Positions 17,801-55,110 of a DNA stretch of 64,000 bases are shown in pieces. The notes below the pieces were generated by a model. That model made no database searches. It was not told where the DNA came from and worked only from the letters and a program-made list of their open reading frames with translations. The stretch spans positions 52,193,257 to 52,257,256 of the forward strand of contig CP141128.1 in the NCBI GenBank assembly GCA_035236585.1, given 5' to 3'. The translations under genes were made by a program, and so were the position numbers. This DNA comes from Warburgia ugandensis (taxonomy: Eukaryota > Streptophyta > Magnoliopsida > Canellales > Canellaceae). Within the stretch, counting starts at the first letter, position 1. Every line of letters starts with the position of its first letter.

Positions 17801-18132
17801 TAACATCCTCATTCATCATTCTCATAATATAATCCATACATGAGCTTTTATATTTGCACCACACAACAATCCTTAATCCTTAAGTCGTCTTAGACTGGAT
17901 TTTGGATAAGGGTTGCACTATCCTCTGCTTAATTATTTGTTAAACCAAGCTGGGTTTCACCTATTTATTCATGCTGAACTGCCTTGTGCATTAATATTGT
18001 AATCCTCAAATAGAAGTAGTCATCTCTACTTCTTCTATTTATACTACTTCTTCTTGATTTTCTCTATTGCCTATGACCCTTGGACATGCAGGACTAGCTG
18101 TGAAAGGATAAAACCTGGGCTCTGATACCAAC
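14821..18132 (-). pseudogene. Body of element C: heavily decayed gypsy pol traces
   Basis: The body begins (plus strand) with a reversed polypurine tract, TTATTACCCCCTTAAAAG. Faint similarity to the minus-strand pol of 43700-46900 can be followed by eye in order. Integrase-like pieces lie at about 15030-15450 and RT-like pieces at about 16380-16760. The primer site lies at the far end. No coding stretch of meaningful length survives; it is far more decayed than its own LTRs. Domain placement is tentative, and the remainder (about 16800-18050) would hold protease and gag by position only. Confidence 0.5.
18118..18130 (-). other. Primer-binding site, element C (minus strand)
   Basis: GGCTCTGATACCA on the plus strand is the reverse complement of TGGTATCAGAGCC and sits two bases from the LTR at 18133. 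It fixes the orientation of element C. Confidence 0.88.
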
Positions 18133-20777
18133 TGTGACAACCTGGGTTTTTCCATGCATTTTTAAATGCAATATCTAAATTCCTAACGCAGGATGCATCC
18201 TTATTTGAAAGCCATTTTATAAAAACCATGCAATGCAACGAAAAATCTTTGGTTTTAAACTCATTTTGAAAACCCCGAGTGTCATTTGCTTTCACAATAC
18301 TCAAAGTAGTTTTTGAAAAACTTCAGAAATCATAAATGTTTTTCCCCAGGTCTATCTAGTCACAGCACACAGTCCAATTGTAAATAAATACATGTCCAAA
18401 GGGTAGAGAGTTTACTTACACGTATAGTTGTCTCCTTTGTTTATTCACTTGCTCATAGCACTAATATCTCCTGAGACGTCTTCTATTTGTGAGTGGAACT
18501 ATCCTGAAAAATATTAAGGATAGGGTGAGTATATACTATACTCAGTAGGAGTCTATCACTACTAGTTTTGCAATGCATGCTATGTTTAAAAATCATATGC
18601 CCTTTAAAACATGTGCATGTTCGAACAACCATATTCAATATCGATATTAAAAACCATTGTCGACCAACCTCATATCATGCCATATGCAATGCAAGTAAGT
18701 CCACGAAACCATATGGCCCAACTATGCCCACGACCTCGCCGCCGTGTGGTCCTCGGGTACTTAGGGACACAGCGTCATAGCCTCCATCGGGCATATGACA
18801 CATCGACCCATTGCCATGACACCAGTGGTAGCCCCCTGTACCACATGCAGTCGACGTAGGGACATTGCCCTTTTTGGGCGTGGTACCCAATCCACCTAAT
18901 AGTGGTAGAGGCTAGTAGGCCAACCCAGACCTCTCGGCATAGTGCTCACGAGCTTATTAGCCCAAATCATATAAGATCAAACAAGCGAAAACCTCTTTTT
19001 CAAAACTTGTCCTCTTTGGGTTCCTCACAACTGCCTGGCCAGCGTCTTTTGGGCACTCTAGCATCTTTTGGTAACCCTCGAGGACAAGCAATTTTTCAAG
19101 AACTCAATGCTCACAAATCATGCAATATATGCAATTATTTGCAAAACATGTCTAAGCATAATGTATTTTTCATAAGCATGCTGAATTCATTTATAAAACT
19201 AAGTCATGCTAAACAAGTCATATAACTTATACTTAAATTATGCACTCAAAACAATCATGGGCTCTTCTTAAAAGTCTAGTAGCGATAGAGCACGTACCTC
19301 AAAGTCTCCTGGAGTCGCGTCCTTTATCACTCAACCCATCCCTGGGTCTCATTTATAAACTCCTGGGTGTGAATGGATACAAGGAGTCCTTATTAATTTT
19401 AATCCATTTAGACATTAGATCGCTAGCTCTGCCTATTGGGTCCTTGGTCCTTGCCTAATTCATTTGTCAGGCTAGATCCTATAATATGGATCTACTTTCC
19501 AATAGTTAAACTCTATAATTTATCTTCTAATCCTAACTTTATAGTCTTAGTTGGTCTGCGTGTCCCAGTTCCTAGGGCACCCGTGCATCATGGTTGAACC
19601 ACGACCGCCTCACGTGCGTGTGCACCCAAAGGTCATGCCAAGGATTGCGTCATCCAAAGGTCTTGCTCAAGTTACCCGCCCAAAGGTCTTGCTCAAGTGA
19701 CGCGTTATGACACGCATCATCGCATGGATGCACCTTGCAGCATGGCGTGTCTCAGCTCCCAGGGCACTCTGTGCATCCTGGTCGAGCCAGGACCCGTGCC
19801 CTATGTCACGCGCGCACCAGAAGGCCACACTTGGGACAATGTACGCACTGTCATACGCCCGGAACCCATCCCTGGGACCCTGTCCCAGGCGTACATGGAG
19901 CAAGGTGTCCCTGGGACGCCTGGTTTATGCAGGGTCCTCTGAACCTAGTTTAGGAACGTCTTGTTCAAGCAGGGCCGACCCAAGCCGGCTTGGAGCATTT
20001 TCCGACCAGGAACCCGGTTGGAAATGTTAGATCCAGTATGGATCTAGCCTGAGAGGAAGAAAGAAAAGGAAAAAGGAAAAAGAATAGCTTACCTGGTAGC
20101 TTGGGGAGTGCCCATCGCCGGTGGTAGAGCCCCATTTCATTCTGAATCTTCCTGCTCGACGGAAAACTCGAAGAAAGGGGAAATTGTGCAAGGCCGAAAC
20201 AAGAGGAGAGAGGGGCATGGGGAAAAATGGCTATGGCCGGCCTGACTTGGACCTGGTCGTTGCCAGAAAATGCAAAGAGACGAGTTTCCAGTTTTTTCCG
20301 AAAACTCCAATCCAAACGTTGCTGGAAAACGTGTTTTTGGAGAGGGGGAGATGGGGTTTTTATAGAGGGGAGAAGGCAGTGCCCCTCAATGGCGGTGCCG
20401 GCCTTTCCCCTTGGGTGTTCTGGAGAAATAAAAAAAAAAACGGGTTTCTGGAGAAGTCTGGAGGTGGAAGATGACAAGGGGTGCCGTTATCAAAACGGCC
20501 CCCTGCGTTTTTCGTCCTTTTTCATTTTTTCGTTTTCCTGTTTAATTTTCAAAAATACCCCTGATCTTTAAACGGCCATAACTTCTTCATACGAACTCCG
20601 TTTTCGGTGATTTTTGAGGCGTTGGATTCCATTTTTTGAGTAGAATCTAATGGTACTATGTTTCCTCACAAATTCCTTCATTTAATATTTTAATTAAAGT
20701 AAAACATTTAACATAGTTCATGTCCTATAAGATGTCCAATTTTTGTTAAAAATAGCGTAAATTGCTCGGGCGTTACA
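18133..20777 (-). repeat. Right LTR of element C (its 5' LTR)
   Basis: On the plus strand it runs TGTGACAACC...GGCGTTACA. It is collinear with 12021-14820 except for short length differences, mainly about 120 bases present only in the left copy near 12550-12670. GC island at about 19560-19990, TATA box at 20357-20364, and a conserved block with GAGGCGTTGGATTCC near 20615. Confidence 0.85.
20357..20364 (-). promoter_or_regulatory. TATA box, 5' LTR of element C
   Basis: TATAAAAA on the minus strand, followed in the direction of transcription by a GC-rich segment. This would be the start site for a full-length C transcript. Confidence 0.5.
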
Positions 20778-23264
20778 GTTAGACAAGGGGTTTGTTAGAC
20801 CAAGTAGTTCACAATGGGGAGCACCAATAATATTTATCACGAAGAAGGATGGGTCAATGAGATTATGCATGGATTATAGAATGTTGAACAGTATCACAGT
20901 GAAAAATAGGTATCCCTTACCTCGCATTGATGATCTCTTTGATCAACTCCAATCTGCTAAGGTCTTTTCCTAAATTGACCTTAGATCAAGATATCATCAA
21001 TTGCGTATTAAGGATGAAGACATACCTAAGTCAGCATTCAGAACGCAATATGGGCATTACGAGTTTCTAGTCATGTCTTTTGGCCTGACCAATGCACTAG
21101 TAGTGTTTATGGATTTGATGAATAGAATCTTCAAGGAATTTTTGGATAAATTTGTGATTGTATTTATCTACTCCAAGAATGGAGTAGAAGTGGACCCCAC
21201 CAAAATTGAAGTAGTAATGAATTGGGAGAAACCTAAACCAGTAACAGAAATACATAGTTTTCTTGGACTAGCAGGATACTACCGCAGATTCATTCAAGGG
21301 TTCTCTCGTATAGCTCTTCCTTTGAGTTCCTTGATAAGAAAGGAGGTACAATTCACTTGGACTGAAGAATGTGAAAATAGTTTTCAAGAGCTAAAGAAGA
21401 GGTTAACCATAGCACTAGTATTGACTTTGCCAACTGGGAGTGGGGGATATGAAATATATTGTGATGCTTCAGGAAAAGGGTTAGGAGGTGTGTTGATGCA
21501 AAATGGGAAGGTCATTGCTTATGCATCTAGACAATTGAAGAAACATGAAATAAATTACCCAATACATGACCTAGAATTGGCAGCTGTAGTTTTTGCATTG
21601 AAAATTTGGAGACATTGTTTGTATGGAGAAAAATTCAATGTATTTACAAATCATAAGAGTCTCAAATACATCTTCACTCAGGCTGATTTGAGCATGAGAC
21701 AAAGAAGATGGATAAAGTATATCAAAGACTATGATTTTTCCATCCAATACCACCTTGGAAAGGCAAATGTAGTAGTTGATGCATTAAGTAGACGACCAAG
21801 AGCTCTACTCACAAACATCACAATTAAATCAGCTTTTGTAGAAAGAGTCCTTAAAGCCCAAGAAGAAGATACAACAACTCAGGAATTGTGTGAAAAGAAA
21901 GGATTTATTAAGGGTACAGATGGAAGTATACGTTTTCAGGAGAGATTGGTGGTTCCTTCAAATACATGTCTGAGAAAGGAACTGATACAAGAAGCCCATC
22001 AGTCAAAGTTTTCTATACACCCTGGAGATACAAAGATGTATTAGGATTTAAAAAGAAACTTTTGGTGGGAAGGCATGAAGAGAGAAATAGGAGAATTTGT
22101 GGCTAAATGTCTAAATTGTCAACAAGTAAAAGCTGAACACCAAAGACCAGCTGGAATATTACAAACATTAGAACTTCCAGAATGGAAATGGGACAATATC
22201 ACTATGGATTTTGTAGTGGGATTTCCAAGGACCCGACCAGGCCATGACATGATTTGGGTGGTTGTGGATAGGCTAACAAAGTCAACACATTTCCTTCCAA
22301 TTAGACAAAACCAATTAGTGGACTGTCTGGCTAAGTTATACATCAAAGAAATAGTAAGAATTCATGGGATTCCACTATCCATTATCTCTAATAGGGATGG
22401 AAGATTTACTTCAAGATATTGGAAGAGTGTACAACAAGCCTTGGGAACCTCACTTAAACTCAGTACAGCATTTCACCCCCAAATAGATGGTCAATCAAAA
22501 AGGACTATTCAAACCTTGGAAGATATGTTGAGAGCATGTGCATTAGATTAGAAAGGGAATTGGGATGAATATCTTCCTTTAGTAGAATTTGCAAATAACA
22601 ACAGTTTTCAAGCAAGTATTGGTATGGCACCATATGAAGCATTGTATGGACGGCCATGTCGATCACCAACCTATTGGAGTGAAGTTGGAGAAAGAAAGCT
22701 GATAAAGTTAGAACTAGTGGAATAATGTGTAGACAAGGTTAGATTGATACAAAAGAGGTTGTTAAAAGCACACAGTCGACAGAAGAGTTATGCAGATAAA
22801 AGACGTAGAAACCTCGAATTTGATGTGGTGGAGCACGTATTTCTAAAAGTATCACCTATCAAAGGAGTAATGAGGTTTGGAAGTAAAGAAAAACTTAGTT
22901 CTAGATTCATTAGTCCATTTGAAATCTTAGAAAGAGTTGGTTCAGTGGCCTACAAATTAACCTTACCACCCCAACTCTTAGAAATACATAGTGTCTTTCA
23001 TGTGTCTATGCTAAGGAAATACCTCCAAGACGACACTCATGTACTTCAAAGGGTGTCAGAAGAGCTAAAGCCTGACCTAACCTTTGAAGATAAGGCAATA
23101 CGAATTCTAGACTGCAAGGAACAGAAGTTAAGGACCAAAAGCATTCCATTAGTCAAAGTCCTGTGGCAACATCACTCTGTTGAGGAAGCCACATGGGAAA
23201 CGGAATTAGAAATGAGGAAGACACACCCTAGTTTGTTTGATATAGTATTGTATTACAAATTTTG
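20778..23264 (+). pseudogene. Element B RT, RNase H and integrase, continued
   Basis: Continues the RT interrupted at 12020. RT runs to about 21270 ([16 protein letters not shown]) and RNase H covers about 21440-21790 ([30 protein letters not shown]). Integrase covers about 21960-22740, with a zinc-binding region ([14 protein letters not shown]) and a catalytic core ([37 protein letters not shown]). The C-terminal part at about 22840-23264 has GPFEILERVGSVAYKL-like sequence and a chromodomain-like VLWQHHSVEEATWE. A 347-codon open stretch (21001-22044) is the longest piece. Fossil. Confidence 0.85.
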
Positions 23265-28559: not shown

Positions 28560-29893
28560 TCTAAATAATTATTTAAGTTCTTATGAATTCCAAAGAAAAA
28601 AATGATCGCTTCATACTCATTTTCTAATGGAAGTGTTTCTGGATCAAAAGTAGGCACGAGATCCACATATTTGAAACAATTGATATTTTCTTATGTTTTG
28701 GAAGAGTATATTATGCAAAAAACATTTGTTTTATAGTACTATATTTTGTTCACATATTTGAGCACTTATGTACATTGAAAACTAATTTGAGTGCTTTTAG
28801 CATTTTATAAATAAGAATTACAATGATTATGATTTTATCCCTCAAAGGTTTATATGTTTTGAACTGTGCACTAAGGGTGCAAGTAGTACCTATGAAAATA
28901 CACAACTCATGATAGTCACTTAGTATCTATTGATTTTTATGGCCCAAGATAGATGTCTTGAGGGATATAAGTCCCTAATGGCACTATGCCAAAAGGATTC
29001 AGATTGGCCCTTAACCTCCAAATAGGATGCCTACACGATAATAGGGCTATTATTATGGGAGTATGTATCCATGGTCAAGCATTGCTAGAAGGTGATTCCT
29101 CTACATGCATAGTAGACCATCCTATTATATAGGCATGAACTAACATGATGGTCATCCTCGAGGGTACAAGCCAGTTGCCAACAAGGCCATGTGGTAGGAT
29201 GTACAATACTACTTAGTAAGATGATATGATACAATAGATACAATAGATTTTCAAGTGCTTTTCCACATCTCCTCATTATAGAAAATTTTGAACTAAATTG
29301 TAAAACTCAAAATTTGATATTGAATGATTATGTGAACACATCTCTTATTTTATGCATATGTACAATAATGTGATTCACATGCTTATGATATTATGAAAGC
29401 ATCATGTTCTTTAGTATTGATTTATAAATGACTTGGAATTCCATATATATATATATATATACATGGTTTTATGTGACCTGCCAAATTAGATGTTAAACAC
29501 CTACACAAGTACAAGATTACTAAGATGTTGTATTGTTTATAATATGCCCAAATTAAAAGAATTTCTCTTGAAAGAAAAGTAGCTTGAGATAGAAGGAATC
29601 TTGTATGAGAATAGCTATAGCTTGAGACAATGCTAACAATGTAAGTATATGACTTCTAATTGATTTTCTAGACATGTATGTGTAAATTTATAAAAGTGGA
29701 TTGTGAGTTGTGACTGGATAAATCCTAGAAACATTAAAAGATGATTTGAACTACTTAAATATAAACATTTGGTACTTCAAAACTTCTGAAATATGTTTAT
29801 CTAATAAAGATGACACTCGGGGTTTTGATTAGAGAACCATTTATAGAAATATGTTTTTACAATTTATTTTAAAAAATAATTTAAACTTCAAAT
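28560..29893. other. Unassigned AT-rich stretch, possible decayed LTR
   Basis: No coding sequence. Some phrases recall the downstream half of the Tekay-type LTRs in plus orientation: GGCACTATGCC near 28980 and GACACTCGGGGTTTT near 29814, comparable to motifs in the LTRs of elements C and E. A perfect AT dinucleotide run lies at 29443-29461. No LTR boundaries or duplication were found, so this reading is weak. Confidence 0.3.
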
Positions 29894-30065
29894 ATGGCAC
29901 CTATTAGAAGGAGTGAGGAAATGCAAGTAGAAGGTTCTAAAGAAAAAGGGGAAGGCCAAAAGAACATGGATAGAAGTGGCGAGAAAAGATTTAAAAACTT
30001 TGGGACTAAATGAAGCCATGGTACTTAATAGAGAGGAATGGAGGAATAGAATCCATGTGCCCAAC
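29894..30065 (+). pseudogene. 3' end of a LINE reverse-transcriptase ORF (RTE-like)
   Basis: Translation from 29894 gives MAPIRRSEEMQVEGSK. After a one-base frame shift near 29945 it continues KRTWIEVARKDLKTLGL and then NREEWRNRIHV. This pattern (basic APIRR..EEIQVEG, then GRPKRTW and DR/NR..WR.RIHVADP) is the C-terminal tail of plant RTE-type LINE proteins. Only about 57 codons remain, ending where the LTR at 30066 begins, so the family-E element landed within the tail (HV|ADP region). No LINE 3' tail or poly(A) was seen. Family assignment rests on remembered pattern, not a search. Confidence 0.6.
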
Positions 30066-30857
30066 TGTGACGACACGGGTTTTTCAATGCCATTTTTAGT
30101 AAGAACACAGCGAGATCGATCTCTAGTTTTAAAACAATTTATGCAGAAGAATGCAGGAAAATTTTCTTCTTTTTCAAAACCATTGTATAAAGAGTCCGAG
30201 TGTCAAAATGAAAGCTCAATGCATAGTGCCATGGCAATTTATAAACCAAATCAAAACAAGTAATTACTCCCAGGATTGTTAGTCACAGCCACAGCTACAA
30301 CAAATACTTACAATCAAGATTACAATAGTTACCAAAGAAATCACTAATTAAATCGTACCTTTGCCTACTTGACTTTGGTCCTAACACCTCCTAATGTTTC
30401 TTCTATTTGTCTTTTCTTTGATCTGAAAAATAATGGATTGGGTTGAGTATTTATCATACTCAGTAGGTAACCTGACACTACTCTTTTTGAAAACACAGCA
30501 ATGCATCATGCAGAGTTCAAAATGGTTCCATGAAAGACATCGGGAATGCTAAATTTGTGATAGGTGTGCATTTGTATGAATAAAATGTAAGTCATGTCAT
30601 CTATTGAAATTCTTTATCAAACTTCAGTATGCAACACTAACAGTATGTCTAGTTTTAGAACGTCGAAATCAATAGATTTACTACGTCAAATCAATGCGTC
30701 ATATAAAACGATCAAGAAATACTTAAAATAGTCTTCATGTGAGGCAAATGTTAGCATCACAAAGTAACATGCACCGGGTCTCAAGTCAATTGGTCAGGAG
30801 TACTCGTTTACGACCATCTTAATGTTATATGCATATTAATACAACTGAAATCATAGG

Positions 30858-31120
30858 GTCACTATGCCCCTCTGCAGGCTACCTCTTTCAGCGATCTGCC
30901 CACTTGGGACTCGAGGTTTTGTTCCTACCACAGGCTGCCTCTTTTGGTGATTTGCCCACTTGGAACTCAAGGTTTTATTCCTACCACAGGCTGCCTCCTC
31001 AGGCGATCTGCCCACTTGGAGCTGAGGGTTTTATTCCCTATGCAGGTTGCCTCATTTGGCAATCTACCCACTATCCCTACGCAGGTCACCTCATTTGGCG
31101 ATCTACCCACTTAGCATAGT
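30858..31120 (-). repeat. Minisatellite in left E LTR (~60-base unit)
   Basis: About five units sharing a core like CAGGCTGCCTC...GATCTGCCCACTTGG, with 50-70 base spacing. The mirrored array lies at 36112-36362 in the right LTR. Confidence 0.75.
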
Positions 31121-31481
31121 GCCCACCAAGCTTAATAGCCCAAAAAGCATATACATAAAGAATCCATATCTTATTCATCGCAACTCATGAAACTTTATGT
31201 AATCATTCTCAATGTTCTCTTTGGGTCCCTCACACTGCCTAGCCCTCACAACTACCTAACGAGCGTCTTTTGGGCACTCTAGTGTCTTTTGGCAACCCTC
31301 GAGGATAGGCAATGCAGTCTTTTTAATTCCTGCAATTTAGGCCATGTATTTTAAAGTATGCAAGCAATGCATTCATAAAATCATCTCAATGCAAATGACC
31401 ACATTCAAGACCATATATTATGAAAACAACTCAATAATAGGAAATCAATAAATCAAGTATATTTGGAAAAGCATAGCAGCA

Positions 31482-31650
31482 TCAGACTACCTAGAAATCA
31501 AGTATATTTGAAAATGCATTAAAAATGTAGTAGTATCAGACTATCTACAAATTAAGTATATTTGAAAATGCATTAAAAATGTAGCAGTATCAGACTACCT
31601 ACGAATTAAGTATATTTGGAAATACATAGCAGCATCAGACAACCAACCTC
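31482..31650 (-). repeat. Second minisatellite in left E LTR
   Basis: Three to four units of about 60 bases, each containing AAGTATATTTG and AGCAGTATCAGACTACC-like cores. Mirrored at about 35600-35800; a single related unit occurs in the family-D LTR near 54265. Confidence 0.75.
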
Positions 31651-32526
31651 GTGCGTTGTTACGTAGCTGGTGTCCCTCTTTCAGTCAAGTCAGAGAGTAC
31701 CTTTGTGGCTCCTGTGTATCATTTAAACATGAAAAATTGGATATTTAGTGTTACAACGTCACGGAAAAGCCAGCTTTTGTCCACTAGGGTCATGCATGCC
31801 ACGGTTCTAGAATGCGTGCTCTACGGTTTCTAGGATGCACGTGCGCCCTGGTTGCACTGCAACCAGGTTGGGTCATGTACGCACGTGCAAATGGTGTGCC
31901 AGGGTGTGCACTCTAGATAGCGTTGCACGAACAGATCTTAGGCATAGCTACGGTGTGCTTTGGCTCCTAGGACATCCCATGAGTCCTGGTCGAGCCAAGA
32001 AAACTATTCGCACGTGACGCGTGCGCAAGGACAGCCCCCAGGGAGCTTAGCACAGGTGTGCGTCAAGCCAGGCGCCCCCTGGACCAGGCCATGCACCTGA
32101 GGACGTCCGCACCCCTGGGACGCCCGTGCATAGGGGCCTTGGACGAGTTTCCACCCGCCTGGTTATCTTCGTTCATGGAGAACTGGTGTTTTTTGATCGA
32201 AAAATTCCCAGATCCGACAAGGATCTGGGCTGGGAAGGAGGGGGAAAGGAGGATCAGTTGGGGCAGCCTGGAACGACACCCTGGTCGTAGGCCTAGGGTT
32301 TTGTAAGGAACCCATCTTCCCTAATGGGTTCTCTGGCCAAGAGATGCCAGATCCGGCTGGATTATGAGGGACAATGGAGGGGAAAAAGAGGAGGAAAGAG
32401 AGGAGAAGAGAAGCATACCTATGAATTCGAGATGGAGTGGGTCTCACGCCTGGGACCCTGCCGAAGATGGTATGGAATTGGGTTTGAACCAGAAATGCTA
32501 TGCTAGGAAAGGGGGAGTGGGAAGAG

Positions 32527-32533
32527 ATTTATA
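32527..32533 (-). promoter_or_regulatory. TATA box in left E LTR
   Basis: Minus strand TATAAAT, within CTCCTATAAATCTC on that strand. Mirrored at 34713-34719 in the right LTR. Confidence 0.55.
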
Positions 32534-33041
32534 GGAGAGGGAAGGCGGTGCCATCCTATGGCGGTGCCGTCATTTTCACTGGCACTGCCTTACAGAGGCG
32601 GTGTTGGAAGTTCTGGAAAAATTGGGAGAGAGGGGGTTTCTGGAGAAATCAGGATGCAGGGTTGGAGGAGGTTGAAGATGGGGTGCCGTTATCAAAACGA
32701 CCCCCTGTGGTTTTTGGCTTTTTCGTTTTTTAGGTGCATTTTACCAAAATACCCTCAATCTTCTAATGCATATAACTTCTTCATACGAGCTCCATTTTTG
32801 GTGTTCTTTGAGGCGTTGGATTCCATTTTGAGAGCAGAATCTAGTGAAAATGAGTTTCTTCACAAATTCCTAAGATTCCTATGTGAATTAGGAGCAAACA
32901 TCCCACCACCTAATAACACCATTAAACATGTAAGAAACATATATTCATTCCCAAAGTAGACCAAGTTACAATATCGTTGACAACGAGCCAATATCATGGC
33001 TGGTTTTTATACAAAATGTCTCCAAAATTTGGGTCATTACA

Positions 33042-33416
33042 TCATTACCCCCTTAAAAGAATTTCGCCCTCAAAATTCTCCAATTCCTTTCTAGAAAATA
33101 GTTTGGGGTACTTTTCTTAGCATTTCCAATTCCACCTCCCAAGTTTCTTCTTCGATGGTCGCATTTTGGCACAAAATTCTAACTAATGGACTGTTTATAT
33201 ATATATATATATATATATACCATAGCAGCTGAATCTTTCTGTCGAAAATCTATATCAGTTTTGTTTCCAAAGTTAAGTCCAGTTGTAGCTCGGCTGGTAC
33301 CTTCTACTACGGCATTAGCTGCCTGAGCATGTCTTGACGTGATGGCATATACTCGTCCTTGACTTTGAGGGATGTGAACTTCCTTATGTTCCTCCTCCTT
33401 CTTCCTTTTAGGGCAA
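33042..33416 (-). pseudogene. Left-arm body of family E (shortened gag-pol relic)
   Basis: Reversed, this carries the start of protease (GRVYAITSRHAQAANAVVEGT) and the far end of integrase (LQLDL...; a WQNATIEEETWE-like chromodomain end), then the polypurine tract. It includes a perfect AT dinucleotide run at 33196-33219. The right arm (33837-34208) holds the same shortened arrangement. Fossil with no coding capacity of its own. Confidence 0.72.
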
Positions 33417-33900
33417 CAGTATGAAAATAAGTTCATAAGTCTTCGTAGATTTCCACCTAATGCTTCTGCCACAGAGGAAGACACTACAAAAAAGTTTGTT
33501 GATGGGTTACACCTGAGTCTTAGGAACCGAGTGATAGGGTTCCAACCCACCACTATAGCAAAGGCAGTAGAAATGGCGTCTCTCTTTGAAAAGGATTATC
33601 AAAGAACATAGGCTGCTAAGGAGGCGAAGCACAACAATGGCGGAAGAAATAATAAAGATCAAAGGCCCAGTCAACCTTCTGGACCTCGACACCCACACAA
33701 GCGACAATTTGATAATAACGAAAAGCACCTAGAATCCAAGACTTGCCCCAGATGCCCCAGATATCACCCAGATAAGCCATGTACCTTCCGTTTTACATGT
33801 TTTAACTGCGGAGAAATAGGACATCCAGCCTGAAATTGCCCTAAGAGGAAGAAGGAGGAGGAACATAAGGAAGTTCACATCCCTCAGAGTTAAGGGCGAG
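33417..33900 (+). pseudogene. Family E gag relic in the foldback centre
   Basis: Plus-strand gag C-terminal half. A NKFISLRRF-type gag-domain end lies near 33425, then FVDGLHLSLRNRVIGFQPTT at about 33495-33555. A basic Asn/Gly/Arg-rich linker follows, and a CCHC knuckle CFNCGEIGHPA..NC lies at about 33799-33840. This sequence is present once and is the asymmetric loop between the inverted arms. It establishes that the right half of the foldback keeps the original gag-to-LTR direction. Broken. Confidence 0.78.
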
Positions 33901-34208
33901 TATATGCCATCACGTCAAGACGTGCTTAGGCAGCTAATGCTGTAGTAGAAGGTACCAGCCGAGCTACAACTAGACTTAACTTTGGAAACAAAACTAATAC
34001 AAATTTTTGACAGAAAGATTTAGCTGCTATGGTATATATAAATATATATATATAAACAGTCCATTAGTTAGAATTTTGTGGCAAAATGCGACCATCGAAG
34101 AAGAAACTTGGGAGGTGGAATTGGAAATGCTAAGAAAAGTACCCAGAACTATTTTCTAGAAAGGAATTGGAGAATTTTGAGGACGAAATTCTTTTAAGGG
34201 GGTAATGA
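33837..34208 (+). pseudogene. Right-arm body of family E with polypurine tract
   Basis: Inverted copy of 33042-33416: protease start, integrase end, then CTTTTAAGGGGGTAATGA up to the LTR start at 34209. It includes an interrupted AT-rich run at about 34032-34055. Shares the shortened arrangement of the left arm. Confidence 0.72.
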
Positions 34209-34712
34209 TGTAATGACCCAAATTTTGGATACATTTTGTATAAAAACCAACCATGATATTGGCTCGTTGCCAACAATATTGTAACTTGGTCTACTTTGGG
34301 AATGAATATATGTTTCTTACATGTTTAATGGTCTTATTAGGTGGTGGGATGTTTGCTCCAAATTCACATAGGAATCTTAGGACTTTTTGAAGAAACTCAT
34401 TTTCACTAGATTCTACTCTCAAAATGGAATCCAACGCCTCAAAGAATGCCAAAAATGGAGCTCGTATGAAGAAGTTATAAGCGTTAGAAGATTGAGGGCA
34501 TTTTGGTAAAATGCACCTAAAAAACGAAAAAGCCAAAAACCGCAGGGGGCCATTTTGATAACGGCACCCCATCTTCAACCTCCTCGAACCCTGCATCCCA
34601 ATTTCTCCAGAAACCCCCTCTCTCTCGATTTTAAACTTCCAGCACCGCCTCTGTAAGGCAGTGTCAGTGAAAATGGCAGCACCGCCATATGATGACACCG
34701 GCTTCCCTCTCC

Positions 34713-34719
34713 TATAAAT
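34713..34719 (+). promoter_or_regulatory. TATA box in right E LTR
   Basis: CTCCTATAAATCTC context, shared with the D-family LTRs (49014, 53225, 55821). Confidence 0.58.
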
Positions 34720-35599
34720 CTCTCCCCACTCCCCCTTCCCTAGCATAGCATTTCCGGCTCAAACCCAATTCCATACCATCTTCTGCAGGGTCCCAGGCGT
34801 GAGACCCACTCCATCTCGAATTCATAGGTATGCTTCTCTTCTCCTCTCTTTCCTCCTCTTTTTCCCCTCCATTGTCCCTCACAATCCGGCCAGATCTGGC
34901 GTCTCCCGGCCAGAGAACCCATTAGGGAAGATGGGTTCCTTACAAAACCCTAGGCCTACGATCAGGATACCATTCTAGGCTGTCCCGACTGATCCTCCTT
35001 TCCCCCTCCTTCCCAGCCCAGATCCTCGTCGGATCTGGGAATTTTTCGATCAAAAAACACTGGTTCTCCATGAACGAAGAGAACTAGGCAAGTGGAAACC
35101 CGTCCAAGGGCCCTGTGCACGGGCGTCCCAGGGGTGTGGATGTCCTCTGGTGCATGGAGTGGTCCGGGGGGCACCTAGCTTGATGCACACCCATGCCAAG
35201 CTCCCTGGGGGCTGTCCTTGCGCACGCGTCGCGTGCGAATAGTTTTCTTGGCTCGACCAAGATTCATGGGATGTCCTAGGAGCCAAAGCACGCCGTAGCT
35301 ATGCCTAAGATGCGTTCGCACAACACTGTCCAAAGTGCACACCCTGGCACACCATTCAGACGTGCGCACATGACCCAACCTGGTTGCGGTGCAACTAGGG
35401 CGCACGTGTATCGTAGAAACCGTAGAGCGGGCATTCTAGAACCCTGGCACATAGGACCCTAGTGGACAAAAGTTGGCTTTTCCGTGACGTTGTAACACTA
35501 AATATCCAATTTTTCATGTTTAAATGATACACAGGAGCCATAAAGGTACTCTAGGACTCGACTGAAAGAGGGACACCAACTATGTAACAATGCACGAGG

Positions 35600-35800
35600 T
35601 AGGTTGTTTGATGCTGCTATGTTTTTTCAAATATACTTAATTCATAGGTAGTATGATATTGCTACATTTTTAATGCATTTTCAAATATACTTGATTTGTA
35701 GGTAGTCAGATACTGCTACATTTTTAATGCATTTTCAAATATACTTGATTTGTAGGTAGTCCGATGCTACTATGCTTTTCCAAATATACTTGATTTATTG
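35600..35800 (+). repeat. Minisatellite in right E LTR
   Basis: Units of about 60 bases with AGGTAGT..GAT.CTGCTA and CAAATATACTTGATT cores; mirror of 31482-31650. Confidence 0.75.
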
Positions 35801-36111
35801 ATTTCCTATTATTGAGTTGTTTTCATAATAGATGGTCTTGAATGCGATCATTTGCATTGAGATGATTTTATGAATGCATTGCTTGCATACTTTAAAATAC
35901 ATGGCATAAATTGCATGAATTAAAAAGACTGCATTGCCTATCCTCGAGGGTTGCCAAAAGACACTGGAGTGCCCAAAAGACGTTGGTTAGGCAATTGTGA
36001 GGGACCCAAAGAGGACATTGAGAATGATTGCATAAATTTTCATGAGTTGTGATGAATAAGATATGGATTCTTTATGTATATGCTTTTTGGGCTATTAAGC
36101 TTGGTGGGCAC

Positions 36112-36362
36112 TATGCTAAGTGGGACGATCGCTGAATGAGGCAACTGGCGTAGGGATAGTGGGTAGATTGCCGAATGAGGCAACCTGCATAGGGACTAAA
36201 ACCTTGAGTTCCAAGTGGGCAAATTGCCGAAGGAGGCAGCCTACGGTAGGAATAAAACCTTGAGTTCCAAGTAGGCAGATCGCCAAAAGAGGCAGCTTGC
36301 TATAGGAACAAAACCTAGAGTCCCAAGTGGGCAGATCACCGAAAGAGGCAGCCTGCAAAGGA
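36112..36362 (+). repeat. Minisatellite in right E LTR (~60-base unit)
   Basis: About four to five units with CCAAGTGGGCAGATCGCC and GAGGCAGCCTGC cores; mirror of 30858-31120. Confidence 0.75.
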
Positions 36363-37163
36363 GCATAGTGACCCTATGATTTCATTTGTATTAATATGCA
36401 TATCACAGTAAGATGGTCATAAGCGAGTACTCGTGACCAGTTGACTTGAGACCCAGTGCATGTTACTTTGTGATGCTAACATTTGCCTCATATGAAGACT
36501 ATTTTAAGTATTTCTTGATCATTTTATACAACGCATTGATTTGACGTAGTAAATCTATTGATTTCGACATTCTGAAACTAGACATATTGTTAGTGTTGCA
36601 TACTGATGTTTGATAAAGAATTTCAATAGATGACATGACTTACATTTTATTCATACAAATGCACACCTATCAGAATTTTAGCATTCCCGATGTCTTTCAT
36701 GAAACCATTTTGAACTCTGCATGATACATTGCTCTGTTTTCAAAAAGGGTAGTGTCAGGTTACCTACTAAGTATGATAAATACTCAACCCAATCCATTAT
36801 TTTTCAAATCAAGGAAAAGACAAGTAGAAGAAACATCAGGAGGTGTTAGAACCAAAGTCAAGTAGGCAAAGGTACGATTTAATTAGTGATTTCTTTAGTA
36901 ACTACTGTAATCTTGATTGTAACTATTTGTTGTAGATGTGGCTGTGACTAACAATCCTGGGAGTAATTACTTGTTTTGATTTGGTTTATAAATTGCCATG
37001 GCACTATGCATTGAGCGTTCATTTTGACACTCGGGCTCTTTATACAATGTTTTTGAAAAAGAAGAAAATTTTCCTACATTCTTCTGCATAAATTATTTAA
37101 AACTAGAGATCGATCTCACTGTGTTCTTACTAAAAATGGCATTGAAAAACCTGGGTCGTCACA

Positions 37164-37685
37164 GTTCATATCAGAGCTAGAACCCGACACGGCAAACCGT
37201 GCCAAGATGGCTTGAGGGTTGGCCTTGTGAGGGGACACAAGATAGTCTGAGGAGGAACACGGGAGGTACTGCTAGGGGGAAGGTGATGGGCCAGGAGTGC
37301 CCGAGACTTCAGTCTCTCACAGTAATCACGCATTTTCCCCTGAGAAGCTGGGGGAGAAACAAAGCCGTGCAGGCCCTGGCCCAAAGCGGACATGTGATTA
37401 CTGTGGACCCCACTGGGGTGGGGTGTGTCACCAACTCCTAATTGGAATAAGGTCTTGATGATGATGATGATGAATTTAAACTAGAGGCCTCATGTTACAA
37501 AATGAATTATAAAAATAATATTTAAAGACTTAGGTGGTCCACATATTCTATGGCCGATCTTGTTCAGATGGTTTGACTGTTAATCTTTAAACTCTAGGTT
37601 AGACCTTCAAGTCTCCAAGTTAGCAAAAATGATTTAATTTTTTAGTCATCTAGCTTAGAATTCTTGGACATCTTTAATTGTAGAT
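37164..37685 (+). mobile_element. Primer site and GC-rich leader of a non-autonomous LTR element
   Basis: Just after the LTR end comes GTTCATATCAGAGCT, a degenerate tRNA-iMet primer site at about 37166-37178. About 270 GC-rich bases follow with no convincing protein. A short hairpin CACGG-CAAA-CCGTG lies at 37188-37201, and a GAT triplet run at about 37455-37472. The position fits the 5' untranslated leader of a large non-autonomous element whose 5' LTR is 34209-37163. After about 37475 the sequence turns AT-rich and ends at the LTR beginning at 37686. Confidence 0.5.
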
Positions 37686-46524: not shown

Positions 46525-46923
46525 TTCAATTTCTATTATCCAGGGCTATTCAACATCTAAGGAAAGCACTGTTGCTAAAAATGCCTAACACTCCTTGGAC
46601 ATATGTTTGACTGCCTTCATAGCTGAGATGATGGATTTGTCTAAGTCATTGTGTTTCCCATACAGTATTAATACTTTCTCCCCTGGTATACTAAATGTGA
46701 GTTTCTTCTTGTGAGAGTCCATAACTACCCAGTATTTTGCTAACCAGTCCATACCTAGTATGATTTCAAAATCCTCCATGTTCAATAAAATGAGGTCTAT
46801 GTCCATTCTTTTGCCCAATACTTAACTACCCAGTATTTTGCTAACCAGTCCATACCTAGTATGATTTCAAAATCCTCCATGTTCAATAAAATGAGGTCTA
46901 TGTCCATTCTTTTGCCCAATACT
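46525..46923 (-). pseudogene. Protease remnant, minus-strand B element
   Basis: Contains MDIDLILLNMEDFEIILGMDW, the conserved C-terminal half of the gypsy aspartic protease, then a KSIISAMKAVKHMSKEC linker. Equivalent to 11560-11790 in element B. The upstream part of the element is absent, and family-B LTR sequence in the opposite orientation begins at about 46924. Confidence 0.78.
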
Positions 46924-48816
46924 TATAAATATTTGTTAAACCTATATTGGATTTATGCTTTAAAGTTTATGATTTAATTGTTGTCAGTTTTTATTAGTAT
47001 ATTCAATTGTATAGTAGTTGTTAAGATATAATGAGCATGAATCATCAAAAATGTAAACTAATGGAATATAGAGAATCATGGACAATTAAGATGAGTGAAT
47101 GACTTTGACTTAATATTAGCAAGGGCTATAGTTAGTAGGACAATGTAAGGATTATCAAATCCTTAGCCCAAACTAGGAGAATAATAAACCCCAAAATGAC
47201 ATTTTAAATGTTCATGGATTTGATTAAAATCAATTAGAAAGAGTACTTAGGGTTAAAATGCTCATAGGAACCTTATGAAAGGTTGAACTAATGTCACTCT
47301 AGTGAATGCTGAGCATGGTGGTTAAGGGGGTTCTCTAATAGAGCCTCATTCTTCTCCTACCTTTTATTGACATTTGTGAGGTCTAAATGCCTCCTTACAT
47401 GAGGATTGGATTGAAGTAACACTTTGTATTCAGCTAGTAAGCCTTAGTCAATTGGAAATAAGAGGAGTCGTTTAGACTTAGCCTGGAATAAGCTATCTTT
47501 AACTAGTAAAATATTAATGGGTTGAATAATAATAATAGCAGCTTAAAAGGTTAGTAAATTATCTAATCCTAATGAAATTTTTAAGTAAGATAAGGATGAT
47601 CAAACAAGATCCATGGGATCTTGAATGATCAAGAACAATAAAAGAAATAAATATTTCTTGATGATGATGATATATATATATTTCTTGCTATTTAGATCAA
47701 ATAGAATAGAAAATCTAAACCCTTGACCAAATATGATTCAAGGAAGAGAACTAAGATCATCCTCCTTAGGGATGATCAAACAACTGAACTTAGATCAAAG
47801 AAGAACTAGATGATAGAAGATCTAAACCCTTGATCTTTATCAACAAGTATAAATTGATAATCAAAGGATCTATGAAAGATCAAGATCAAAGAAAGGAATA
47901 CACAAAGACTTAGAATAGAAAATACTTAGATCTAAAAGATTAGAAGATCATTCTAGCCATTAGATCTATTGATCAATAGGATAAACACTATTTGAGGAAG
48001 ATAGATCATGATAGGACAAAAGATCTAGATTCTTTATATCAAAGGACAAGATTAAACAAAGAATATTGATAGGATAAAAAAATATAGGATTATTCAGATT
48101 GTACAAATATTGAAGTATGTATGGATTTACATATTACATATGTCAGTCAAGATCATGGAAGGTCTTAAGAGATGCATCACTACTTGAAGGTAGGAGGATT
48201 TTATGAATCTATCTACATGAGATATACATGTTGAATACATGATCTTATGTCTGGAAATGTTGACAAGTATAATGTAAATACTTGAATTAAATCCATTAAA
48301 AACCCTTATGATCCAACCAAAACACATATGAAATGGTTACGTTAGAATTGAAAAAAAACCTAAGTGAATAGGGAACTAGAAGGTATTCCAGCCTTAGATA
48401 AAAATACAAATTGTTTAATAAGTATAAAATCAATACGTGGGAATCATTCATATAGAACGGTGACCCCTAAACTTATATGAACGTGGGTATCATTCATTGT
48501 AAGTGATGATCCCTAAGTTGAAATGAAATCCTATCTTCGGTATAAGAATACCAAAATATGAGGACGATGATATAAAGAGATAAGACGTCTGATAAGTAAA
48601 AGAATACTTTATATACAAGCAAGCAGGCTTGTGGTTTTTGTTTTAAATAGGTGTATGCCTAGGGATGCTATGCTAGGAGGGTTATCAGGGTTTGGCCACT
48701 CGCTCTCCGAAATGTGATATATATGATGATACCGTGTGCAAAGAGAGGCAAAATGTCTAGTGGGGCAATTATGAGAAGGACACCCCTGTGACGGTGTGAC
48801 TCCCTATATAGACATG
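46924..48816 (+). repeat. Later part of a forward family-B LTR
   Basis: Collinear with about 25700-27250 of the element B 3' LTR (TTTGTTAAACCTATATTGG, GGATTATCAAATCCTT, and the GTTTGGCCACTCGC block near 48694). It has about 170 extra bases near 48430-48600 that the B LTR lacks but 55375-55545 shares. It stops near CTCCCTATATAGA and continues directly into family-D LTR sequence. Confidence 0.72.
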
Positions 48817-49130
48817 ATGTGGGGCTATTTTGTAAATGGCACCCCCATTATGTCATAACCGTGTCATCACCCATGTCAACCTTCATCACTGCCTTGTTGT
48901 CGTCTGTGTCTGCGTCAAAAATCTGGCAAGCACCGACCTTCTATGGTCTTCTTCCCTTACAGCGCCGAGAAAAATGGCAGCAACGCCACAAGGATGGCAG
49001 TTCTCTCCACCTCTATAAATCACCCCCTACTCCTACTCCTCGCATCACACCTCTCTCCCTCCACTTTGACAATCTCTGACATTTAGGGTTTTGGCGACGT
49101 AGAAGACCTCACACCACCTAGAAAACACAA
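48817..49130 (+). repeat. Family-D LTR segment with TATA box and leader
   Basis: GACATGATGTGGGGCTATTTTG through GAAAACACAA. It matches 53010-53330 of the D 3' LTR and 55596-55932. TATA box at 49014-49020. The D LTR sequence ends where protease begins at 49131, so no primer site or gag lies between. Confidence 0.72.
49014..49020 (+). promoter_or_regulatory. TATA box upstream of gag-less D element
   Basis: CACCTCTATAAATC context, identical to 53225 and 55821 and close to 34713. Confidence 0.52.
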
Positions 49131-52100
49131 TGCAGTCATAGAAGGCACACTTCATATCTATGATAGACCTGCCAAAGTATTATTTGATACTGATTCTAGC
49201 CATTCTTTTACACATTGCGAGTTTTCTTCTTCTATTGATAATATAGTTCAAGACTTAGATTTCTCCTTAGAAGTCATGACACTCTTAGGCAAGTCAATTT
49301 CCACACAAACATACTTCCAGGATGTTGCAATTGTAATTGAGGACAAACAAATGAACATAGACTTAATCCACCTAGATATGACAGACTTTGACATCATACT
49401 TGGGATGGATTGGTTAGCCTCACATCATGCAATAGTTGATTGTTGAAAGAAGAGGATTATTTTTACTCTACTTAGAGGAGAAGTGGTTTCCTTGCAAGGG
49501 AGAAGAGATTATTCAGGAGCATGTGTTATTTCTACAATAAAAGCGGCAAAGCACATTGCTTAAGGATGTCAATTCTTTTTGGCTAAAATAGAAGCCACTG
49601 AGGTCACAAAACCCAAATTAGATGACATGGCTGTGGTTCGTGAATTTTCAGATGTGTTCCTTGAAGACCTACCAGAGTTACCACCAAAAAGGGAGATAGA
49701 TTTTACTATTGACCTGATACCTGGCATAGCCCCTATATCAAAACCACCATACCAGATGGCTTTAGTAGAGTTGAAGGAGCTTAAGACCCAGTTATAAGAG
49801 TTGCTAGACAAAGGATTCATCAGACCTAGTGTATCTCCTTTGGGAGTGTCATTCCTTTTTGTTAAGAAAAATGATGGATGAATGAGAGATTGCATTGACT
49901 GTCGAATGTTGAATAGGGTCATAGTGATAAACAAATATCCTTTACCCCGTATTCATAACTTGTTCGATCAACTCCAGTTAGCTCGTGTCTTTTCCAAGAT
50001 CGATGTACGATCTAAATATCACCAACTTAGAGTCAGGGAGAAATATATTCCAAAGACAGCATTCAGAACTAGATACAGACACTATAGTTTAGCTTGATGT
50101 CCTTTGGACTGGCAAATGCACCATCCGCATTTATGGATCTTGTGAACCAAATATTCAAAGCCCATCTAGACAAATTTGTTACAGTATTTGTGGATGATAT
50201 TTTAATCTACTTAGAAAATCTTAAGGACTATAGGGAACATTTATGAGTAGTACTGAATACACTTAGAACACACAAATTGTATGGAAAAGTTTAATAAGTG
50301 TGAATTTTGGTTGGAAGAAGTGAATTTTCTAGGTCATGTTATTTCTAAAAATGGCATTGCAGTCGACCCAGCAAAAGTTGAAGCTGTGGAAAAATGGAGT
50401 ACAACTAAGACATTGACTGAAATTAGGACTTTTCTAGGGCTTGCCGGATATTACCAAAGATTTATTGAAGGATTTTCATGCATTGCCTTACCCTTGATCA
50501 AATTAACAAGAAAAGATAGAAAGTTTGAGTGGGATGAGGCATGCAAAGAGATTTTTCAAGAATTAAAAAGGAAGTTAACCACTGCACCAGTACTTAGTCT
50601 ACCATTTGGAAGTGGAGCATTTGAGATCTATAGTGATGCTTCTAGAAAAGGACTAGGCTGTATGCTTATGCAAAATGGAAAAGTAATCACCTGTGCCTCT
50701 CGATAATTGAAAAAGAATGAGATCAATTATCCTAGCCATGACTTGGAGCTTGTTGCAATAGTCTTTGACTTCGATATTTGGAGACACTATCTGTATGGCG
50801 AAAATTTTGAAGTTTTCACAAATCACAAAAATCTTAAGTACATCTTTTCACAACAAGACTTGAACATGCCACAAAGGAGATGGATGGAGTATTTGAAGGA
50901 TTATAACTTTTCCATTCAATACCATCCAGGGAAGGCTAATGTAATATAGATGCTTTAAGTAGAAAGACACAAGGAATGTGTGCAAGTTTACTTTCCAAAA
51001 GATGGAAGTTATTACAATAGGTAATAGAATGCAGACTTGAAGTAGGTCATGGGAGATCCTTTATAGAAAATTTGACTATGAGATCCACTATCAATGAGAA
51101 AGTTAGGCAGATGCAAAAGGATGACACTGAAATATAAGCATTAGTTGGAAAACCAAGATTCGTCAAGGAGACAGATGATAGTGTTCTCATGCGAGGAAGA
51201 TTAGTAGTGCAAGCCAATGATGAAATAAGGCAAGAAATTATGAAAGAGGCACATCAATCTAAGTACATTGTTCATCCTGAGGGAACAAAGATGTATCAAG
51301 ACTTGAAGAGACACTTCTGGTGGAATGGTGTGAAAAGGGATGTAGGAGAATTTGTAGCACGATGCTTGACTTGTCAACAAGTTAAGGCTGAACACTAGAG
51401 ATAGGCAGGATTTTTACAACCACTTAAGCTACCAGAATGGAAGTGGGACCATATTACAACTGACTTCATATTAGGATTACCTAAGATATCTAGGGGACAT
51501 GATATGATATGGGTAATCGTTGATTGACTAACTAAATCGACACACTTTCTCCCAATCCAACAAAATCAATCCACTGATAGCCTATCTCAATTGTATATTA
51601 AGCAAGAGGTAAGTTTGCATGGGATACCACTTAGCATTAATTTTGATAGATATGATATGGGTAATCGTTGATTGACTAACTAAATCGACACACTTTCTCC
51701 CAATCCAACAAAATCAATCCACTGATAGCCTATCTCAATTGTATATTAAGCAAGAGGTAAGTTTGCATGGGATACCACTCAGCATTAATTTTGATAGAGA
51801 CAGTAGTTTTACCTCACAATTATGGAAGTCGGTGCAGACGTCATGGGAATCTTCATTAAATTTCAGCACTACTTTTCATCCTCAAACTGATCACTAATCT
51901 GAACATGCAATTCAAACATTGGAGGATATGTTACGGGCATTTGCAATAGCCTAAAAGGAGAATTGGGATGAGAGTTTACCCTTAGTTGAATTTGCATATA
52001 ACAATAGTTTCCATTCAAGCATTGGTATGGCTCCATACAAAGCGCTCTATGGAAGACTTTGTTGTTTGCCTATGTGATAGAATGAAGTGGGTGACAATAG

Positions 52101-52671
52101 AATTATGCAGTCAGAGTTTGTAAAACAATGTGCAGACAAGGTGAAGCTTATAAGAAGACGACTCCTCGTAGCTCAAAGTCAGCAAAAGAGTTACACCAAT
52201 AAATGAAGAAGACCATTGGAATTTCAAGTTGGAGATCATGTTTTCTTGAAGATACTCCAACTAAGGTGTTATGAGGTTTGGTTTGAAAGGAAAACTCAGT
52301 CCTCGATTTATTGGACCATTCAAAATCCTAGGCAGGATTGGGATGACTACCTATAGGATAGCATTACCACCACAGTTATCAGAAATTCACAATGTTTTTG
52401 ACATATCCACATTGGGAAAGTATATTCCTGACCACACACATGTACTTGAGTAGGTACCAGTCGAGCTACAACTAGACTTGACCTTGGAAACAAAACTAGT
52501 ACAAATTCTTGATAAGAAGATCAAGAAGCTACGAAGGAAAGGAATTTCATTAGTTAGAGTTCTGTGGAGGAATGCATCTATTGAAGAGTAAAACCAAGGA
52601 AGTGGAATCCAAAATGAGGGATAGATACAATGAAATCTTTATGAGTAAGGAATTGTAGATTTTCTAGGATG
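49131..52671 (+). pseudogene. Family-D pol relic, first copy (protease to integrase)
   Basis: Starts with the protease phrase AVIEGTLHIYDRPAKVLFDT, then RT at about 49640-50440. RNase H covers about 50530-50950 (DLELVAIVF region) and integrase about 51190-52050 ([32 protein letters not shown]). A C-terminal integrase region and chromodomain-like end follow at about 52270-52600. gag is absent. Its sequence is distinctly different from families A and B (for example [20 protein letters not shown]). Heavily broken, probably twenty or so interruptions. Confidence 0.8.
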
Positions 52672-52693
52672 AAATTCTTTAAAGGGGTAATGA
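52672..52693 (+). other. Polypurine tract, family D
   Basis: TTCTTTAAAGGGGTAATGA precedes the 3' LTR at 52694, very like the tract of family E at 34190-34208. Confidence 0.68.
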
Positions 52694-53224
52694 TGTAATG
52701 ACTCAAAATTTTAAGATATTCTGGTCAAATAATAGTAACCCTCTTTCAATCACAATCAATCATAGTATTTGTAATTTATGAAATTTTTACATCTTATTTA
52801 TTATGAAAAATGATTATATTGGATGGTTGGATAAATGTTCTATTTTATTTTAAATAAGTAAAGAGAGAATTTGATTAAAATATCTCCATAAATAAATTCT
52901 ACTCGAGAAATGGAATGTAATGCCTCAAAGAACACTAAAAAAGGAGTTCGTACGAAAAAGTTATGAGCATTGGGAGATGAAGGGTATTTTGGTAATTTAA
53001 AGTTTTAAAAAAAAACACATGGGGCTGTCTTGTTAATAGCACCCCCATTACATCATAATTGTGTAATCCATGTGTCATCACCTGCGTTAGCCTTCATCAC
53101 CACCTCGTTGTCGTCCGTGCCTGTGCCAGAAATCTGGCAGGCGCTGACCTTCTATGGTCTTCTTCCTCTACGGCGTTGAAAAAAATGGCAGCACCGCCAC
53201 GGGGATGGCACTGCCCTTCACCTC

Positions 53225-53231
53225 TATAAAT
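53225..53231 (+). promoter_or_regulatory. TATA box in family-D 3' LTR
   Basis: TATAAATC in a CACCTCTATAAATCTCCCCC context conserved with 55821. Confidence 0.55.
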
Positions 53232-54537: not shown

Positions 54538-54859
54538 CCTAATGAGCGTCATAGGCATTATGCTGAGAGGTTATTTATGTATGGGGTTGGCCCACTGGCC
54601 TCTAACCACCAAAGGTGGTAGTTAGCACTGCCCAAAGCGGCATTGTCCCTTCCTTGACTACTGTGCTAAATAGGGACTACCACTTGAGGTTTCGGGCTAA
54701 TGAGCCTAATGGGCACTATGATGAGAGGTTGTTTATGTACGGGGTTGGCCTCCCAGCCTCTAACCACCAAAGGTGGTAGGTATCACTGCCCAAAGTAGCA
54801 TTGTCCTTTCCTCGACTATTGTGGTAAATAACGACGACCACTGGAGGTGTTCACAACAC
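54538..54859 (+). repeat. Two tandem ~170-base units in the D LTR
   Basis: Each unit holds CTAATGAGC, GGGGTTGGCC, CTCTAACCACCAAAGGTGG and CACTGCCCAAAG phrases. CCACCAAAGGTGG is itself a short inverted repeat (CCACC / GGTGG). Occupies the place where E LTRs carry the 60-base minisatellite. Confidence 0.8.
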
Positions 54860-55035
54860 CCTTTTCGAGGAAATATCCATAGCTATTGTAGAGGCTATGG
54901 TGGGTTGGTCTCTAGATACTAGAGACACATGATTTTAGAATAGGTTTTGGTCGTGAGCATAGTTGACCCTATGATTTCAGTTTTGATATCAATATACATA
55001 TTGCATTGAGATGGTTGCAGACGAGTACTCATAAC

Positions 55036-55110
55036 TAGTCGGCTTGATGTGTTTGCTAACCTGTTGGCTTGATATGTTCGCTGACCCATCAGCTTGATGT
55101 GTTCGTTGAG
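55036..55110 (+). repeat. Short tandem repeat in D LTR (~25-base unit)
   Basis: Three units around GGCTTGATGTGTTCGCTGACC, with a fourth isolated copy near 55227. Confidence 0.7.

Follow-up and report, generated by a model that had tools for sequence, protein, structure and literature searches.

Retroelement complexes in which several parts share a single target duplication have been described before. Sabot and Schulman (2007; PMC1950507) reported insertions that each contain several LTRs and bodies and have one 5-bp target duplication, and attributed them to template switching between co-packaged RNAs. Their complexes are direct repeats with three LTRs, in which an internal LTR is shared by two complete direct cores and the outer LTRs are identical. 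Gao et al. (2016; PMC4717578, Fig. 2C) presented an inverted tandemly arrayed TRIM of maize, with two inverted retroelements inside one 5-bp target duplication and a length of about 0.56 kb by its coordinates; according to the same text, the maize TA-TRIMs are supported by PCR and sequencing. For HIV-1, second-strand transfer between molecules is described in PMC5651808.

The locus analysed here is a variant of these published structures. It lies in a 64,000-nucleotide stretch of Warburgia ugandensis DNA (contig CP141128.1), which is called the window and to which all positions refer. As in the complexes of PMC1950507, one target duplication surrounds the whole structure. However, the two large LTRs are inverted, the cores of the family involved (family E) are incomplete, so that no internal LTR is shared by two complete ones, and the left end is an E LTR, whereas the right end is an unrelated tail. 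Like the maize pair of PMC4717578, the locus has two copies in opposite orientation enclosed by a single target duplication, but these copies are not TRIMs, and the unit is 7.4 kb long and consists of a gag-bearing Ty3/gypsy element with a different short end. Among the matches listed in a literature search, judged by title and opening of the abstract, none describes two families combined in an inverted complex that has a single target duplication. We consider it fairly probable that positions 30066-37430 (Table 1) are one integrated aberrant cDNA, for which cDNAs of family E and of a short element became linked at the primer site during reverse transcription and the copying then reversed direction within gag.

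Table 1. Coordinates of the inserted unit, its parts and its flanks in the window
Feature	Positions	Strand	Remarks
10-bp target duplication of LINE-like fragment, left copy	29878-29887		AATTTAAACT
LINE-like fragment, 3' end of reading frame, interrupted	29888-30065	+	open frame to ...WRNRIHVPN at 30065
5-bp target duplication, left copy	30061-30065		CCAAC, flanks the inserted unit
Inserted unit	30066-37430		7365 bp, TG...CA
Left LTR, family E	30066-33041	-	2976 bp; U5 end is the outer end, at 30066
Left arm, internal part	33042-33418	-	polypurine tract, integrase C-terminus with TA run, deletion joint, gag end
gag spacer (capsid C-terminus and zinc-knuckle region)	33414-33833	+	continuous with right arm
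Centre junction, left arm	33416-33418		CAA, 3 bases matching both arm and gag spacer
Right arm, internal part	33834-34208	+	gag end, deletion joint at about 33946-33956, integrase C-terminus with TA run, polypurine tract
Right LTR, family E	34209-37163	+	2955 bp; U5 end at 37163
GT, primer-binding-like site and short internal stretch, presumed short element	37164-37225	+	TCATATCAGAGC from 37166
Candidate LTR, presumed TRIM-like element	37226-37430	+	205 bp, TGTGAGG...GTGTCA; start picked by eye on the usual TRIM layout, end set by the target duplication
5-bp target duplication, right copy	37431-37435		CCAAC, the only one within 37166-37500
LINE-like fragment, continuation	37436-37472	+	short 3' end and GAT-repeat tail
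10-bp target duplication of LINE-like fragment, right copy	37473-37482		same as 29878-29887

The initial annotation had proposed inverted arms of about 3.35 kb around a gag spacer, and this was borne out. The left arm (30066-33418, read on the minus strand) aligns with the right arm (33834-37163) at 93.2% identity over 3330 columns, with 226 differences (168 transitions and 58 transversions) and four small gaps (2, 4, 16 and 1). Blastn gave the pairing 30063-33416 / 37166-33836 at 92.8% identity, and a repeat search of the window returned the same pairing as ungapped blocks. The divergence of the arms (K 0.072) is near that of the LTR pair of element D (K 0.087). Positions 30066-37163, previously given as the extent of the structure, hold as boundaries of the arms, but the inserted unit reaches 37430 and is flanked left and right by a target duplication. 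Assemblies and libraries are known to produce long palindromes as artefacts. Such a foldback should have near-identical arms, and target duplications that match on both flanks would be an unlikely accident; we regard it as the least probable of all the explanations weighed here. The arm divergence of 6.8%, which is dominated by transitions, and the matching duplications thus weaken the worry about an assembly error, but do not close it.

Read outward, each arm begins in the last part of gag and continues through a fragment of the integrase C-terminus and a polypurine tract to a full LTR, which starts with TGTAATGACCC and finishes with GTCGTCACA. The joint of an internal deletion is common to both arms. 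The TA run was ruled out as the mark of the pol deletion, as comparison with element F places it within the integrase C-terminus. Family E has kept gag and LTRs and is without protease, RT, RNase H and most of the integrase; the window contains no complete copy. Its assignment to Ty3/gypsy is based on the gag zinc knuckle, integrase end, polypurine tract, TG...CA LTR and 5-bp target duplication, all of which were found, the gag and integrase pieces being short and their Pfam scores under the cut-offs. TR-GAG-type elements are a class of non-autonomous LTR retrotransposons; E, a putative family in a window that has no complete copy with two direct LTRs, resembles them in having gag and LTRs without most of pol.

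Both arms stop exactly at the U5 end of the LTR, the left one at the target duplication and the right one at GT and the primer-like site. The description of the pair as two outward-facing 3' LTRs is accurate for what lies inside each LTR, but on the right a primer-binding-like site then follows. The right LTR thus lies between a polypurine tract and the primer-like site, the arrangement expected of a strand-transfer joint.

The spacer between the arms measures 415 to 419 bases, a range set by the 3-base overlap at the centre. It reads as gag on the plus strand and runs on unbroken into the right arm. It is therefore part of the right copy, and this fixes which strand turned round. In tblastn the spacer matched the gag of C1 (10805-10993) with 44% identity (E 4e-16), while the Pfam scores for Ty3_capsid (20.1 bits, cut-off 29.1) and zf-CCHC (19.7 bits, cut-off 20.8) were both below cut-off. 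No LTR terminus was found at the inversion centre, where gag is joined to gag. Autointegration was ruled out, as no LTR end is joined to an internal site there. Simple self-priming of E's own minus strand was rejected as the whole story: it predicts a spacer that runs on into the left arm, yet the spacer joins the right. The overlap at the centre is short, which counts against the best explanation.

Beyond the right LTR, the last part of the inserted unit is a 267-bp stretch (37164-37430), which looks like the end of a different, short TRIM-like element. The primer-like site at 37166 has the same spacing from CACA as the sites in elements B (10040) and D (18127, minus strand), and differs by two bases from their TGGTATCAGAGC. 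All TATCAGAGC sites in the window (3 of 3, both strands) lie five bases past a terminal CACA. A TRIM is shorter than 1 kb and has two direct terminal repeats that enclose a primer site and a polypurine tract; of these features, the tail shows a primer-like site and one candidate LTR. Its naming as a TRIM is tentative, because searches of the window and of viral_contigs found no second copy, and the window contains no relative. A search of 29800-37600 against Rfam was negative. In viral_contigs, 19 stretches fitted a 15-base pattern taken from the tail; when the tail and the whole window were compared with these stretches by blastn, three matches of 19, 24 and 31 bases resulted, each of them to the tail, which we judged to be chance.

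The same 267 bp would be E's own leader if a single E RNA had been primed within it. Minus-strand synthesis would have started at 37430 and proceeded through leader, primer site and U5; after a jump to the 3' end it would eventually have turned back within gag, giving one cDNA and one integration without a second family. This requires just one kind of RNA and places the tail directly after the primer-like site, where a leader belongs, in a window without a complete E copy to show the real one. We nevertheless consider it unlikely: the right terminus must end in CA and be accepted by the integrase by chance, the GC content of the tail is 57% versus 42% in the E LTR, and the leader of D, an LTR-related element, has nothing in common with the tail beyond the primer site.

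The 5-bp duplication CCAAC flanks the entire unit. Random 5-mer pairs in the window agree with a frequency of 0.0014, and the ordinary element D, used as a positive control, has a 5-bp duplication GTTAG. The interrupted host copy is LINE-like, presumably of RTE type, in keeping with its duplication and GAT tail; its 45-residue piece had no Pfam match. The 10-bp duplication around it occurs just twice in the window (both strands searched), and random 10-mer pairs agree with a frequency of 1.4e-5. If the two LINE-like halves are put together with a single CCAAC, an immediate stop follows HVPNS, while a join one base shorter stays in frame; either the host copy must therefore contain a small indel, or the boundary has been placed one base too far. 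Past CACA, three extra bases (GTT) agree on both arms (chance 1 in 64), which could hint that the left flank is other than plain target DNA.

Because one CCAAC pair brackets a TG...CA unit inside one interrupted LINE-like copy, the foldback and the 267-bp stretch most likely entered by one integration, and single integration of 30066-37430 is well supported. This argues against an assembly foldback, against two head-on insertions and against an inverted duplication at a later time. Among the origins suggested in the initial annotation, template switching is the one that agrees with the data; two head-on insertions and later break repair both agree badly with a single 5-bp duplication around the whole structure and with the single interrupted host copy. 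Nesting is common in the window, and if E had inserted twice head-on, or into a resident TRIM, with the middle parts deleted later, a pair of this kind would remain once each copy had lost its 5' half. But one E end would have had to hit the left target duplication exactly and another the position exactly before the primer-like site, the outer flanks would have to share CCAAC, and the right LTR would have to lie between a polypurine tract and a primer-like site, which makes independent insertions very unlikely. An inverted duplication at the DNA level, through break repair following an ordinary insertion, accords with arms of one age (K 0.072). It is highly improbable, since it leaves unexpected both the outer ends lying exactly at U5 and the shared target duplication, and blastn detected no flanking DNA common to both arms past three bases.

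For a single aberrant cDNA, we infer the following route, strand by strand. Within one virus-like particle, the pol-less, gag-bearing Ty3/gypsy family E and a short TRIM-like element would be reverse transcribed side by side. The minus strand of the short element, ending in primer-binding sequence, would pair with the identical sequence with which the E plus strand terminates at its 3' end, which amounts to a second-strand transfer between molecules, and would be extended across the E LTR, the polypurine tract and the body as far as gag. At that point it would jump, with an overlap of about 3 nt, onto the E minus strand and be copied back to the 5' end of that strand, which is E's U5 end. Both termini would then be 5' ends of tRNA-primed minus strands and thus normal substrates for the integrase, which would place the molecule in the LINE-like copy and make the 5-bp duplication. 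The fuller claim, that two unrelated co-packaged retroelements were joined via a shared tRNA primer site by intermolecular second-strand transfer, turned in gag and integrated as palindromic DNA by unlike U5 ends, is more tentative, and we give it somewhat less than even credence. The host might also have joined two broken E cDNAs head-on before integration, one of which was by then linked to the short element. End-joining, too, typically leaves an overlap of 3 bases, and the single target duplication would be preserved, so that sequence alone cannot separate this possibility from the best explanation; it is distinctly unlikely, as both cDNAs must have been broken and a strand-transfer chimera must have formed independently.

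In each LTR, the sense strand contains two TATAAAT motifs and the antisense strand none; for a looser TATA pattern, the counts per LTR are three (sense) and one (antisense). By LTR polarity, both promoters may fire outward, away from the centre, but the evidence for this direction is weak because the looser pattern is present on both strands. If they do so, a hairpin transcript across the arms would probably need an outside promoter. The initial annotation suggested that such a hairpin might be a source of small RNAs, which would entail a transcript across both arms and siRNAs that map to them. The arms share 52 perfect runs of at least 21 bases (1953 bases in total).

The autonomous elements that mobilise TRIMs have yet to be established, and the interactions between the two still need experiments, according to PMC4717578. 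Where the joint of a chimera lies at the primer site, it provides physical evidence that the elements concerned had a particle and enzymes in common. If our reading is true, the locus would preserve, like a fossil, the co-packaging of a large gag-only element and a TRIM, and a plant integrase would be able to use unlike ends. The boundaries enable a simple genome-wide search for inverted LTR pairs with their U5 ends outward and one target duplication. The proposed route would also be a one-step way to long inverted repeats, which plants can convert to silencing RNAs.

A short reading frame to the left of 30066, which looks like the 3' end of a LINE, stops at ...CATGTGCCCAAC. From 37431 rightward this interrupted sequence resumes: first CCAAC, then a short 3' end, and last a tail of GAT repeats. 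The LINE-like fragment is bracketed by the 10-mer AATTTAAACT, which has no other occurrence on either strand of the window and fits the target duplication that a LINE would leave. Because it lies on both outer flanks, the two sides are one interrupted LINE-like copy. The interrupting unit begins with TG, ends with CA, is 7365 bp long and has CCAAC on each side. Random pairs drawn from the window agree by chance at a rate of 0.0014 for 5-mers and 1.4e-5 for 10-mers. When the LINE-like halves are joined with one CCAAC, a stop follows soon past the joint; with one base less at the joint the frame stays open, and the fragment may thus hold a small indel. The 5-bp duplication around the ordinary retrotransposon D is of the same kind as CCAAC.

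Coordinates of features in the window
Feature	Position	Strand	Content
LTR between elements B and C1	8148-10034
Element C1, in the inverted pair with C2	11547-28165
Element D, complete LTR retrotransposon	12021-20777 (12016-20782 with target duplication)	minus	LTR pair, primer site, target duplication GTTAG
AATTTAAACT	29878-29887; 37473-37482
LINE-like fragment	29888-30065; 37436-37472
Interrupting unit	30066-37430
E arms	30066-33418; 33834-37163		outward, both arms: gag end, deletion joint, integrase C-terminal end with TA run, polypurine tract, complete LTR
E LTRs			left 2976 bp, right 2955 bp
TA runs in E arms	33193-33220; 34030-34057
Tail	37164-37430
Element C2, in the inverted pair with C1	39111-46823
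Tandem duplications	46722-46925; 51501-51798		about 101 bp x 2, 100%; 148 bp x 2, 99%
Element F	48459-59350		related bodies 48459-50923 and 55381-59350

The initial annotation had described an inverted repeat built from a retrotransposon, and this was borne out: the arms, which belong to a pol-less, gag-bearing Ty3/gypsy family (E), are 93.2% identical (3330 alignment columns; 168 transitions, 58 transversions). Since the deletion joint is identical in position in both, protease, RT, RNase H and most of the integrase were lost before the inverted structure formed. Stops are present in the gag frame of spacer plus right arm. The gag pieces score below the curated Pfam cut-offs, the short integrase piece gave no match in a Pfam search, and the putative identity of both rests on tblastn to neighbouring elements. 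Inside the integrase C-terminus both E arms carry a TA run that F and C1 lack at this position. With K 0.072 between them, the arms have diverged about as far as the LTR pair of D (0.087), as expected for a structure ageing after one insertion. The arms also agree over three bases (GTT) past CACA, which is taken as chance.

The right E LTR does not touch the target DNA directly, but is adjoined by GT and then TCATATCAGAGC. TATCAGAGC, presumably the initiator-tRNA-Met primer site, occurs three times in the window (both strands), in each case five bases past an LTR-terminal CACA; the other two sites, after the LTRs of B and D, read TGGTATCAGAGC. The primer site of D is at 18130. The tail has 57% GC, compared with 42% in the E LTR, and ends in GTGTCA at the target duplication. 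It resembles TRIMs of plants, and a candidate LTR of 205 bp would start at 37226. No relatives of the tail were found within the window, and no second copy in the window or in viral contigs, which makes the TRIM-like reading the least secure point of the argument.

A single integration needs a single linear DNA molecule, bounded on the left by the U5 end of E and on the right by the end of the tail; should the tail be an LTR, both ends would be what a tRNA-primed minus strand carries 5'. The junctions are read directly in the sequence; the strand-by-strand steps we infer. The U5 of E meets the tail at the primer-like site, and it is at the primer site that second-strand transfer takes place; intermolecular transfer there would yield this join. 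Because the gag of the spacer runs without a break into the right arm, it would be the strand carrying that arm that reversed direction, passing from gag near 33416 to gag near 33836; up to three bases are shared there. Copying would then have run back as far as the U5 end of E and stopped, as expected if the template was the minus strand of E and not the growing strand itself.

For HIV-1, Cappy et al. 2017 (PMC5651808) suggest that second-strand transfer may be intramolecular or intermolecular. Sabot and Schulman 2007 (PMC1950507) described direct complexes with one target duplication (two in ~7 Mb of Triticeae sequence, a single case each in rice and maize, none in Arabidopsis) and proposed template switching between co-packaged RNAs. 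The unit shares the single target duplication, but is inverted and has unlike termini; with neither direct orientation nor similar outer LTRs, it is not a member of their class, though it may have the same way of working. One inverted TRIM pair within one target duplication is figured for maize by Gao et al. 2016 (PMC4717578), where the passage concerned gives no mechanism; the unit has the single duplication in common with it, but is of a different size and combines two kinds of element.

The window consists of nested Ty3/gypsy-type retrotransposon DNA (GC 36.8%), of plant type to judge by the LTR structure. D sits within the pol region of C1 (insertion point 12018/20778). A single LTR has the pol end and polypurine tract of B on one side and, on the other, C1 with its primer site (10037) and gag (10352); this is an LTR-sharing tandem complex. 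F, with two bodies in direct order (pieces 86-91% identical) and an LTR-like start between them at 52694, is perhaps another. C1 and C2 flank the E unit on either side, inverted and tail-to-tail (pieces 91-94% identical, one LTR piece 80%). The two tandem duplications, amid much older repeats, are either very recent or assembly artefacts.

The two E arms match perfectly in 52 runs of 21 bases or longer, which add up to 1953 bases. Each E LTR contains TATAAAT twice on the sense strand and never on the antisense strand (three and one for a looser TATA pattern). By LTR polarity the predicted promoters face outward, so that a transcript across the unit would probably have to start outside it; given the perfect runs, such a transcript could, in principle, be a Dicer substrate.
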